The notes beneath the pieces were generated by a model. It saw nothing but the letters and a program-made list of their open reading frames with translations. It was not told the origin of the DNA and searched no databases. From NCBI RefSeq assembly GCF_021491375.1, contig NZ_JAKEVY010000003.1:682001-746000 (forward strand): 64,000 nt of DNA, in the 5' to 3' direction. The DNA comes from Flavihumibacter fluminis (GTDB taxonomy: Bacteria; Bacteroidota; Bacteroidia; Chitinophagales; Chitinophagaceae). Made by a program: the position numbers and the translations under genes. Shown here one piece after another: positions 4,041 to 6,965 of the stretch (position 1 is the stretch's first letter; each line of letters begins with the position of its first letter).

Positions 4041-5741
4041 TTAATATTTTTTACCCAACGTTACCGCCAGCCGGTAACGTTTTGTTTTTCCGGAAAGATG
4101 CCAGGCATCCACCACGATTATGTACAAACCATTAGCTACAAGATGATGTTTATCATTCCTTCCATCCCATTTAAAACTTCCTTTCATCGCACAAATGCCA
4201 TTGTTAATAAACATTCGATGCGGATTTCCCAAGTGGTCAAAAATCCGGATGCTTACCTGGTATCCTGGTTGTGCAAACTCGTATTGTATTTCACAGTAAT
4301 CCTGGTGGCCGTCACCATCTGGACTCACCACCTGTTCAGTTAAAAATACCCGGTCCGGATCATCAGGAATACCTGCTTGCGAATTTTCATAACCTGGCGT
4401 ACCATAACCGGCATGCGCAGCCGCGGATGTCCAGTTCAAGGCTGACAGACTGGAAACTGCCGGATCCCTGCGCTCCAATGAAACATTCTCCGTGTTCCGA
4501 AGCATCTCATGGTGCCAGGCTGCATCGTATTGGACCTCATCTATCACTTGCTGCATCGCATCCAGGAGTACGACTGTTCCTTTGTCATTCGGAAAGGAAG
4601 GCAGGGAGGCCAATTCCACCAAACAGTTGGGATGTTTCACCAGGTATTGTCGCTGTATCCAGTTTGCATCCGTAGTTACAACCAGGAAATCTCCCGGATA
4701 GAGGAAACGAGGACCCGGAACCAAGGCCCTGAGGCCTGACAAATTTCCATTGCTGTTTCTACTGGCAATCTGCCATCCTTCGAGTTGAACCGGCGCCTTA
4801 CCAAAATGAAAGAGTTCAATAAAATCACTACCTCCGTTTATTGGGTCTGCTAAAATCTCATTTATAACGATGGCTTTCTCCGTAGTATCCGCTAAACCAA
4901 CTTTTAACTTTCTGAACCCTGCTCCCTGCTCAGGATCTTCATCACACCCTGGAATAGCGGCTACTTGCAGTGTATAAATTTTTCCTGGCTCAAGGGCGTT
5001 TCGCAAATGTAGCAGCATCTCCTGTTGGAAAGGTGCCAGCAGTTCCACTTTTTCCACTTCCGGTCCGGCCTCCAGCTTATACAACGCAGCCTGTTCGGCA
5101 ACCAACTGGTGAATTCTATCGGTGAAGGCTATTCGAATCGTGTACTCATCCGGGCACCAGGCATGAATTGGATCCACAACGGGTAATGTAACAATTGAAG
5201 GTGAATGACTATTGGTTTTGCCCGGGCTTCCTCCCGATGTATCCAAACTGGCGCGCCAGTTGTTTATCTGTCTGCAGGTCTTTTCTTTGTTCACCATTTC
5301 GAGGGACCAGCCCCCATCTGCTTTCTCGTCTTTCAAAAGAGAAGGAAGATAGGCGGCTGCAAACACCAGTTCATCTTTTTCATTCAACAAGAACAGGGTA
5401 TCGCCAGCATTGGAAATCGCAGGAAATGGGCTTAGACCGATGGTGCGCCCATAGGAAGTAAAGAGGTTAATCGCTCTGGCCGGACAAAGAATCAATATTT
5501 CACCGGGAGCCATGCGAACACTGTCTCCTAACCTTCCAATTGTTCTGCCATTGGAAAGTTTCCATCCACTCAAACTGATCTCAAGAGTACTAACATTGGT
5601 TAGTTCTACAAACTCTTCTGCAGGCAACCCAACGCTGGGTAAAGGATCCCCCATGATCTCTGTAATAACAACCGGAAATCCTTGTCCATAAAGGGTTTCA
5701 AAAGAAAATACAAGCACCGCAAACTGCATCCATTTCCACAT
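4041..5741 (-). CDS. Secreted lamin-tail-domain protein with gliding-type C-terminus
   Basis: This 566-residue exported protein begins with a signal peptide (hydrophobic FAVLVFSFETLYGQ). A lamin tail domain follows (VITEIMGDPLPSVGLPAEEFVELTN), then a second lamin-tail-like copy near the middle (INEILADPINGGSDFIELFHFG). The C-terminal about 90 residues (VVSPDGDGHQDY, then IFDHLGNP and FKWDGRND) resemble the CHU_C/FlgD-like Ig domain common at the end of Bacteroidota surface proteins. Lamin-tail proteins of this sort are thought to bind extracellular material; no enzyme motif is seen. It stands alone, convergent with the PfkB gene. Confidence 0.8.
   Translation of the reverse strand: MWKWMQFAVLVFSFETLYGQGFPVVITEIMGDPLPSVGLPAEEFVELTNVSTLEISLSGWKLSNGRTIGRLGDSVRMAPGEILILCPARAINLFTSYGRTIGLSPFPAISNAGDTLFLLNEKDELVFAAAYLPSLLKDEKADGGWSLEMVNKEKTCRQINNWRASLDTSGGSPGKTNSHSPSIVTLPVVDPIHAWCPDEYTIRIAFTDRIHQLVAEQAALYKLEAGPEVEKVELLAPFQQEMLLHLRNALEPGKIYTLQVAAIPGCDEDPEQGAGFRKLKVGLADTTEKAIVINEILADPINGGSDFIELFHFGKAPVQLEGWQIASRNSNGNLSGLRALVPGPRFLYPGDFLVVTTDANWIQRQYLVKHPNCLVELASLPSFPNDKGTVVLLDAMQQVIDEVQYDAAWHHEMLRNTENVSLERRDPAVSSLSALNWTSAAAHAGYGTPGYENSQAGIPDDPDRVFLTEQVVSPDGDGHQDYCEIQYEFAQPGYQVSIRIFDHLGNPHRMFINNGICAMKGSFKWDGRNDKHHLVANGLYIIVVDAWHLSGKTKRYRLAVTLGKKY
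4057..4090 (+). terminator. Intrinsic terminator of the PfkB gene
   Basis: Perfect 9-bp stem AACGTTACC (4057-4065) / GGTAACGTT (4073-4081), loop GCCAGCC, followed by TTGTTTTT. It lies inside the last codons of the convergent gene at 4041-5741, so the coding sequence and the terminator share the same bases. Confidence 0.75.
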
Positions 5742-5789: not shown

Positions 5790-5821
5790 TTTGGGTGAAA
5801 AAACCCTTCGCATTAATTTCG
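5790..5821 (+). promoter_or_regulatory. Promoter of the asd leader transcript
   Basis: A -33 box TTTG (5790-5793) is separated by 20 bp from TAATTTCG (5814-5821), a 7/8 match to TAnnTTTG. Both elements and the spacing fit the Bacteroidota sigma factor. Transcription should begin around 5827, at or just before the leader-peptide ATG at 5828. Confidence 0.65.
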
Positions 5822-5827
5822 TGCACC

Positions 5828-5890
5828 ATGATTACAATGAAACATACTACGAAGACCAAGAAACAGCTCCCACAAGTGGAAGGTGTGTGA
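5828..5890 (+). CDS. Putative leader peptide of the asd attenuator
   Basis: This is a 20-codon open frame starting MITMKHTTKTKK. Of the first 12 residues, 11 are Met, Ile, Thr or Lys, all made from aspartate semialdehyde, the product of the enzyme encoded next (asd). Thr codons are at 3, 7, 8 and 10; Lys codons at 5, 9, 11 and 12. The frame ends with TGA at 5888-5890, inside the segment that can form an antiterminator. Together with the promoter, terminator and alternative hairpin, this reads as a ribosome-stalling leader of the thrL kind. No Shine-Dalgarno site is seen and the mRNA may be leaderless. Expression is inferred. Confidence 0.65.
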   Translation: MITMKHTTKTKKQLPQVEGV

Positions 5891-5925
5891 TCTCGTATAT
5901 GTTCACTAAATAACACAGGCCTTCC
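5878..5925 (+). promoter_or_regulatory. Antiterminator pairing in the asd leader
   Basis: GGAAGGTGTGT (5878-5888), the last codons of the leader peptide, can pair with ACACA (5913-5917) and CCTTCC (5920-5925). This gives 11 base pairs with a single 2-base bulge (5918-5919). It consumes the 5' arm of the terminator at 5919-5946, so the two structures exclude each other. A ribosome that reaches the stop codon would cover 5878-5888 and favour termination. One stalled at the Thr/Lys codons (5846-5863) would leave it free. Confidence 0.65.
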
Positions 5926-5946
5926 CAAGTAGGGAAGGCTTTTTTT
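5919..5946 (+). terminator. Attenuator terminator upstream of asd
   Basis: Perfect 8-bp stem GCCTTCCC (5919-5926) / GGGAAGGC (5932-5939), 5-base loop, and seven T. It lies between the leader peptide and asd, 26 bp before the asd start, with no plus-strand gene upstream other than the leader peptide for it to terminate. Confidence 0.85.
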
Positions 5947-5972
5947 ATAACCAAAATGCAAGCAAAAACGCA

Positions 5973-6965
5973 ATGAAAGTCGCAGTTGTAGGGGCCACCG
6001 GACTGGTTGGAACCAAAATGTTACAAGTATTGGCTGAACGGAATTTTCCCGTTACCGAATTGATTCCAGTAGCTTCTGAAAAATCAGTGGGTAAGGAAGT
6101 GGAGTACCAGGGTAAAAAATACAAAGTGGTTAGCATGACAGATGCCATCGCAGCCAAACCCGCGGTGGCGCTCTTTTCTGCCGGCGGAAGCACCTCCCTT
6201 GAGTGGGCTCCCAAATTTGCAGCTGCGGGTATTACTGTTATCGATAACTCTTCTGCATGGCGCATGGACCCTGCCAAACCCCTGGTAGTGCCTGAACTGA
6301 ATGCCGATATTCTTACTGCCACTGATAAAATCATTGCCAATCCGAATTGCTCAACCATTCAAATGGTAGTTGCATTGAATCCGCTGCATAAAAAATACGG
6401 TATCAAACGGTTGGTGGTATCCACTTACCAGAGTGTAACCGGTACCGGTGTAAAAGCGGTTGACCAATTGATGAATGAGCGTAAAGGTATTCAGGGTGAA
6501 ATGGCCTATAAATATCCGATTGATCTTAATGTGATTCCACAAATCGATGTATTCCTTGACAATGGTTACACCAAGGAAGAAATGAAAATGGTGAATGAAA
6601 CCAAAAAGATCATGCGGGATGAAACGATCCGTGTTACTGCCACTACGGTTCGGATTCCGGTAATGGGTGGGCACTCTGAAAGTGTGAATGTGGAATTTGC
6701 GCAGGACTTCGATCTGAACGAAATACGTTCTTTGCTTTCTTCTGCACCTGGTGTTGTACTGGTAGATGATCCTGCCAACGCACAATATCCGATGCCAAAG
6801 GATGCACACGAAAAGGACGAAGTTTTTGTTGGTCGTTTGCGTAGGGATGAATCTCAACCCAATACACTGAATATGTGGATCGTCAGCGATAACCTGCGCA
6901 AAGGTGCCGCCACCAATGCGGTTCAGATTGCTGAATATCTTCAGCAAAAAGGATTATTGTCCTGA
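5973..6965 (+). CDS. asd: Aspartate-semialdehyde dehydrogenase
   Basis: This 330-residue enzyme reduces aspartyl-4-phosphate to aspartate semialdehyde with NADPH, the branch point to lysine, threonine, methionine and isoleucine. It shows the NADP-binding GATGLVG (residues 7-13), the catalytic Cys126 in NPNCSTIQ, and the substrate-binding segment RIPVMGGHSE. Length is typical (about 330). It stands as a single gene behind the attenuator-like leader at 5790-5946 and is followed by a strong terminator at 6974-7010. Confidence 0.97.
   Translation: MKVAVVGATGLVGTKMLQVLAERNFPVTELIPVASEKSVGKEVEYQGKKYKVVSMTDAIAAKPAVALFSAGGSTSLEWAPKFAAAGITVIDNSSAWRMDPAKPLVVPELNADILTATDKIIANPNCSTIQMVVALNPLHKKYGIKRLVVSTYQSVTGTGVKAVDQLMNERKGIQGEMAYKYPIDLNVIPQIDVFLDNGYTKEEMKMVNETKKIMRDETIRVTATTVRIPVMGGHSESVNVEFAQDFDLNEIRSLLSSAPGVVLVDDPANAQYPMPKDAHEKDEVFVGRLRRDESQPNTLNMWIVSDNLRKGAATNAVQIAEYLQQKGLLS

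Follow-up and report, generated by a model that had tools for sequence, protein, structure and literature searches.

The asd gene of Flavihumibacter fluminis appears to be preceded by a ribosome-mediated transcription attenuator through which it would respond to the level of charged tRNA-Lys and, in Chitinophagaceae, probably also to that of charged tRNA-Thr; we put the probability of this reading at about 0.8. Translation of the leader, a partial and regulated termination, and the identity of the signalling amino acid are inferred from the sequence. The element lies in a window of 64,000 nucleotides from contig NZ_JAKEVY010000003.1, for which a preliminary description had proposed an attenuator in front of asd. 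The elements named there are real, and their coordinates are right to within a few bases.

The controlled gene (5973-6965, plus strand) encodes aspartate-semialdehyde dehydrogenase, its identity being confirmed by the NCBIfam profiles PRK14874 (456.5 bits, cut-off 223) and asd_B (437.7 bits, cut-off 324.2); the nearest named asd, that of Flavihumibacter sp. UBA7668, is 94% identical. The left neighbour, an ORF at 4041-5741, is on the other strand and divergent from asd; we therefore rejected the reading that the terminator at 5917-5946 serves a gene upstream. Upstream regions of asd were sampled from 30 genomes of the family Chitinophagaceae (L001-L030), from 80 records (L031-L110) and from 80 more family genomes (L111-L190), three sets that overlap in part. 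The family regions were taken from the best 150 of 279 asd matches, and the sample therefore favours close relatives. Leader and terminator are found upstream of asd in 131 of the 190 regions (30/30, 23/80 and 78/80 in the three sets, respectively), and after 35 near-duplicates had been dropped an alignment of 96 non-redundant loci (A1) remained. The leader frame, the promoter spacing, the stems and the leader residues recur throughout these 96 relatives, a positive outcome for the check proposed beforehand, that leader residues and stems should be conserved in related Chitinophagaceae. The element is missing from the Mucilaginibacter, Pedobacter, Sphingobacterium, Hymenobacter and Flavobacterium records among the 80 and from three records labelled Chitinophaga pinensis, whose asd is only 74-76% identical; one of the negatives (L054) has only 46 nt of upstream sequence.

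The promoter can be read directly and is seen again in the relatives. It consists of a -33 element, TTTG (TTTGG), at 5790-5793 and, after a spacer of 20 nt, a -7 element, TAATTTCG, at 5814-5821, with one mismatch to the consensus TAnnTTTG (both on the plus strand). A -7 box was found in 91 of the 96 relatives; TTTG or TTGG ends 19 nt 5' of it in 69 of these 91, and in 86/96 relatives the end of the box lies 4-10 nt 5' of the leader ATG. In Flavobacterium psychrophilum the box has been mapped at -12 to -5, according to PMC9723704, and with this position the transcript is predicted to start at 5826, which leaves a 5' UTR of 2 nt in the window and of 0-6 nt in 86/96 relatives. The promoter of the preliminary description thus stands, with its start moved from the leader ATG itself to a predicted site 2 nt before it. 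Leaderless mRNAs are given as 5.5% in F. psychrophilum (PMC9723704), and 5' UTRs under 10 nt as about 3.7% in Bacteroides thetaiotaomicron (PMC7366714).

The leader ORF, MITMKHTTKTKKQLPQVEGV and a stop, runs on the plus strand from the ATG at 5828 to the TGA at 5890; it has 20 codons and is predicted to be almost without a 5' UTR. Direct reading bears out that 11 of its first 12 residues are Met, Ile, Thr or Lys, and it has as many Thr codons as Lys codons (four of each). Across the 96 relatives, these four amino acids make up a fraction of 0.708 of codons 2-12; dinucleotide shuffles give 0.410 (sd 0.012), and the other two frames 0.20 and 0.30. The leader frame had been picked by the most Lys and Thr wherever a choice existed, but a second candidate frame is present in only 2/96 loci, and we rejected frame picking as the source of the composition. 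A promoter-anchored choice blind to composition, possible in 82/96 loci, agrees on the frame in all but one of them (81 of 82) and yields a fraction of 0.703. Third codon positions are the most variable (0.446, against 0.170 and 0.316). Lys is kept at four positions (79, 85, 81 and 86 of 96), with both AAA and AAG in use, and the last two of these positions lie outside the tested helices; in the window they are codons 11 and 12, which are largely free of pairing in the off state. The His, the first Thr and the Arg of the leader are inside the protector helix described below, and the conservation of their codons may come from the RNA helix and not from the peptide. No position conserves Met or Ile in the manner of a control codon, Met reaching at most 32/96 in the ten tabulated codon columns. 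A short ORF rich in codons for the products of the pathway thus precedes the gene, and its codon pattern gives indirect support to its probable translation.

The region folds at a z of -3.26, and none of 200 shuffles is as stable. Three helices can be distinguished, all on the plus strand. The intrinsic terminator (regions 3 and 4, 5917-5946) lies between leader and gene and is both predicted by folding and covarying in the relatives. As the preliminary description had it, its arms GCCTTCCC (5919-5926) and GGGAAGGC (5932-5939) form a perfect stem of 8 bp, which becomes 10 bp with A-T and G-T ends, and seven T follow at 5940-5946. In the 96 relatives 99.0% of its cells are paired, 7/9 pairs show two-sided change, and 52 cells are changed on both sides compared with 8.7 in shuffles.

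The antiterminator likewise proved to be as described, with GGAAGGTGTGT at 5878-5888 pairing with 5913-5925 over 11 bp with one bulge and using the 5' arm of the terminator. Its 5' strand, region 2 (5876-5889), overlaps the leader stop codon and is identified by folding, relatives and simulation; its 3' strand, region 3 (5913-5926), is common to the terminator. When the region is folded with the leader masked, the antiterminator has 12 pairs. The seven inner pairs are formed in 79-95 of 96 relatives and the four outer pairs in only 38-58 of 96. Pairs with two-sided change number 8 against 7.2 in shuffles (193/500 as high) and further pair types 26 against 28.2. The core of the antiterminator is therefore conserved and its column-wise covariation is weak, in a test that is itself weakened by gaps and by the double duty of region 3. 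We also compared native with cross-species pairing, which is free of alignment columns: the native strands pair better in the antiterminator (-15.3 versus -13.9 kcal/mol, permutation z -6.4) and in the protector helix (permutation z -12.2), both z values being inflated by kinship.

This protector helix was not mentioned in the preliminary description and completes the classical 1:2 / 2:3 / 3:4 logic. Control codons of the leader (region 1, 5838-5858) pair in the off state with 5888-5905, as judged from the fold and from covariation of the family helix, which in the relatives joins leader codons to a GTATGT stretch. It is paired in 75.5% of cells, and 81 cells are changed on both sides against 36.5 in shuffles; counted by pairs, two-sided change shows no excess (8 against 7.8 in shuffles, 310/500). 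The protector helix covaries, more moderately than the terminator.

Switching between these structures was simulated in the 96 loci by folding with the ribosome footprint masked. The antiterminator has a simulated probability above 0.5 in 96/96 loci wherever the A site is placed from codon 4 to codon 12, and in 2/96 once the ribosome has reached the stop codon. In the window the probability is 0.95-1.00 at codons 4-12, 0.00 at the stop and 0.03 with no ribosome. The near absence of the antiterminator with a ribosome at the stop follows from the geometry of region 2, whose start, relative to the first base of the stop codon, lies between 17 nt before and 6 nt after it in 96/96 loci; both stop-codon classes put the terminating ribosome on region 2. 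The antiterminator, which excludes the terminator, is thus covered by a ribosome finishing the leader, as had been proposed.

We suggest the following mechanism. Transcription would start some 2 nt 5' of the ATG of the leader. With ample Lys (or Thr), the ribosome would proceed to the leader stop and cover region 2 (GGAAGG), which would let the terminator (5919-5939) form. When Lys is short, it would stall on a Lys codon among codons 5-12 and mask region 1, region 2 would pair with region 3, no terminator would form, and asd would be transcribed. Were the leader not translated, its codons would pair with 5888-5905, sequester region 2 and so lead to termination. This last branch holds for the window and not generally, since the antiterminator still forms without a ribosome in 73/96 simulated relatives; the protector prevents it in 23/96 overall.

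A covariance model built from A1 (R1) finds the element at E <= 0.01 in 199 of 294 family genomes, belonging to 78 of the 101 genera, and no match at this threshold in the other 95 genomes. In the genome of F. fluminis the asd copy is the one significant place (E 8.2e-11, the next being 0.104), and further copies there were rejected on this basis. A class-wide search matches 65 of 345 genomes, five of them Chitinophagaceae. We read 23 places outside the family: 12 are before asd, five look like attenuator leaders of genes other than asd, and six show nothing convincing. All six have E above 3e-4, and class-level E-values above this figure are therefore no evidence on their own.

Copies before other genes of the pathway bear on the identity of the signal. 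In 15 family genomes of four genera the element also stands before dapA, the first lysine-only enzyme, and each of the 15 DapA proteins scores above the cut-off of TIGR00674. These 15 come from two sets of family places that were read: twenty comprise 13 asd and 7 dapA, and 17 further, weaker ones comprise 8 dapA, 2 asd, 2 hisG with His-rich leaders (both HisG proteins pass their profile cut-off) and 5 with nothing convincing. The dapA leaders (n = 15) have 3-6 Lys and 0-2 Thr, and the 11 distinct asd leaders from four other families contain 4-7 Lys with 0-1 Thr. We note that the asd leaders of one other family (L257, L259-L262, L273) often pair Lys with Cys (KCMKK, ICKNKKH). Since the Lys codons are the most conserved, copies stand before dapA, and asd leaders elsewhere are rich in Lys and poor in Thr, we read the signal at asd as chiefly lysine. 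The leaders match the products of their own pathways, those at asd and dapA pointing to lysine, with Thr plausibly a second input at asd in Chitinophagaceae; for the leader in the window, with its equal numbers of Thr and Lys codons, a double input of Lys and Thr may apply. When the 330 bases preceding the profile matches are inspected by eye, the dapA of F. fluminis has no such leader, and no leader-terminator unit is seen before its two monofunctional aspartokinases.

The preliminary description had gone further and proposed that several end products are sensed together, in that stalling on any Met, Ile, Thr or Lys codon would induce asd. The composition of the leader in the window and the family-wide fraction given above speak for this, as does the position before the last Lys pair, outside the tested helices, which is Thr in 50/96 and Ile in 22/96 asd leaders. 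In genomes that carry both copies, this position is Thr (9) or Ile (3) in the 12 asd leaders, whereas the 15 dapA leaders have Val or Ser (11) or, in the shorter leaders of one genus (g24), Ser or Cys (4). However, asd leaders outside Chitinophagaceae have 0-2 Ile as well as few Thr beside their many Lys, dapA has leaders of the same type, Met is seldom kept at any position, and thrA has a leader of its own for Thr/Ile control. A sensor for the whole aspartate family is thus doubtful; what stands of the proposal is the parity of Thr with Lys in the window, and what does not is an equal part for all four residues, Lys being the most widely kept and Met and Ile not conserved by position.

A strong terminator and competing helices would be present whatever the trigger, and the ORF could be an accident in a leader controlled by a small-molecule riboswitch or an RNA-binding protein. 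We regard this as improbable. At gathering score no regulatory Rfam family matches in the window (tRNA alone is listed) or in 20 related loci, and the lysine riboswitch, T-box, asd motif and Thr_leader were rejected on these grounds. The lysine riboswitch (RF00168), with no match in the window, is found in 0/20 genomes (that of F. fluminis and 19 relatives, some of them incomplete), in a search whose control was detected in 4 of 14 named genomes. Conservation at the level of codons, the one open frame, the synonymous exchange of AAA and AAG, and stop codons of either class that place the terminating ribosome on region 2 all speak against an accidental ORF. It is highly improbable that leader and terminator are a gene in their own right, for a short sRNA or a small protein, and that asd is transcribed from another promoter. 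Promoter, ORF and terminator alone would look the same, and there is a sub-threshold similarity to OmrA-B (24.1 bits, gathering score 40). The exact box TAnnTTTG occurs in 0/96 gaps between terminator and asd, but it precedes only 47/96 leaders, and the search was therefore repeated with a relaxed box. A relaxed -7 box alone is then found in this gap in 7/96 relatives; a relaxed full promoter is found there in 1/96, against 83/96 5' of the leader, and none is found in the 26-nt gap of the window. On this search we rejected a separate asd promoter as unlikely. Moreover, the element keeps its place before asd throughout the family, recurs at dapA and retains its antiterminator core.

Leaders of a similar kind are seen before other amino-acid genes. 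The genome of F. fluminis has a Thr/Ile-rich leader ORF, MAFISTYTTTTTTITTR, upstream of the bifunctional thrA (aspartate kinase/homoserine dehydrogenase; L252, C21:395318-396691, minus strand); folding predicts no terminator there, and we claim the leader alone. It also has a His-rich leader ORF, MKRNSNIHHHHVLLPAR, before hisG (L283, C11:511323-511865, minus strand), with an inverted repeat GGGCTTACC/GGTAAGCCC upstream of the gene, together a putative attenuator of classical look. The five attenuator-like places outside the family that are not at asd lie before hisG (His-rich), bifunctional thrA (Thr/Ile), prephenate dehydratase (Phe), a NirA/sulfite-reductase-like gene (Met/Cys) and ilvE (Ile/Thr/Val, 559 nt upstream). 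The prephenate dehydratase leader, from another Bacteroidia family, is MQKQLNNYFFFFNAMR (L280:123-291), and the Thr- and Ile-rich leader stands directly before the bifunctional aspartate kinase/homoserine dehydrogenase gene (L269:100-260). The leader at L276:1-600 ends in MMCCMMCI, 317 nt before the NirA/sulfite-reductase-like gene, and is possibly a cysteine/methionine attenuator.

Classical attenuation is well known, and the design of thrL joins a leader peptide with control codons, 1:2 / 2:3 / 3:4 logic and an aspartate-family target. The element shares all three features, and the thrL-like logic proposed for it is supported by its parts, their conservation and the in silico switching. It differs in being dominated by Lys, in targeting asd and dapA and in its predicted start with nearly no 5' UTR, and it falls outside the Thr_leader family (RF00506; 14.4 bits, gathering score 55). 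Bacteroid-trp, a trp attenuator, is from the same phylum but concerns another gene and amino acid and has no gathering-level match at the asd element. This motif (RF01692) is presented as a likely cis-regulatory motif of Bacteroidetes in PMC2864571, which also gives the asd RNA motif (RF01732) from Lactobacillales; the latter has only its name in common with our element and does not match the window at gathering score. The lysine riboswitch (L-box, RF00168) is described as controlling asd- and dapA-containing operons in Firmicutes (PMC5584792), a likeness in target, but it is a ligand-binding aptamer without a leader peptide. The attenuator RNA trpL of Sinorhizobium meliloti has its 5' end at the leader ATG, according to PMC7298713, and so resembles the start predicted here, in a Trp operon of an alphaproteobacterium. 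Attenuation in Bacteroidota is known or suggested, with clues of it before amino-acid operons noted in PMC9723704, and PMC1262725 sets lysine and methionine, with riboswitches, against histidine, threonine and phenylalanine, with attenuators.

In the open-access literature searched we found no description of an attenuator for lysine or asd, although surveys of attenuation may hold a lysine case, and none of leader-peptide attenuation in Chitinophagaceae; among the open-access matches listed, none on lysine-codon leader peptides concerns lysine synthesis. The statement that no asd case is described in Bacteroidota agrees with this literature, among the matches listed. The Vitreschak 2004 survey, which takes in some Bacteroidetes, reportedly covers operons for branched-chain amino acids, His, Thr, Trp and Phe, and Lopatovskaya 2010 is said to be a further survey of attenuators. 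As far as could be seen, what is new in the asd element is its amino acid, the gene that it controls and the predicted geometry of its start.

We would go one step further, with a confidence only somewhat better than even, and suggest that a new class of lysine-responsive leader-peptide attenuators plays the part in Bacteroidia that the lysine riboswitch has in other bacteria, with asd as a switch for Lys and Thr, dapA as a Lys-only copy and thrA as the Thr/Ile counterpart, on leaders nearly without a 5' UTR. Control of lysine genes by RNA has been known in the form of riboswitches; a lysine attenuator seen in five families would fill this gap for a phylum whose amino-acid regulation is little studied, and lysine control at asd and dapA would become predictable from sequence. 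With the element, attenuation could be examined in a natural setting on transcripts that are almost leaderless, and the asd/dapA pairs within one genome make the sensed residue directly testable.
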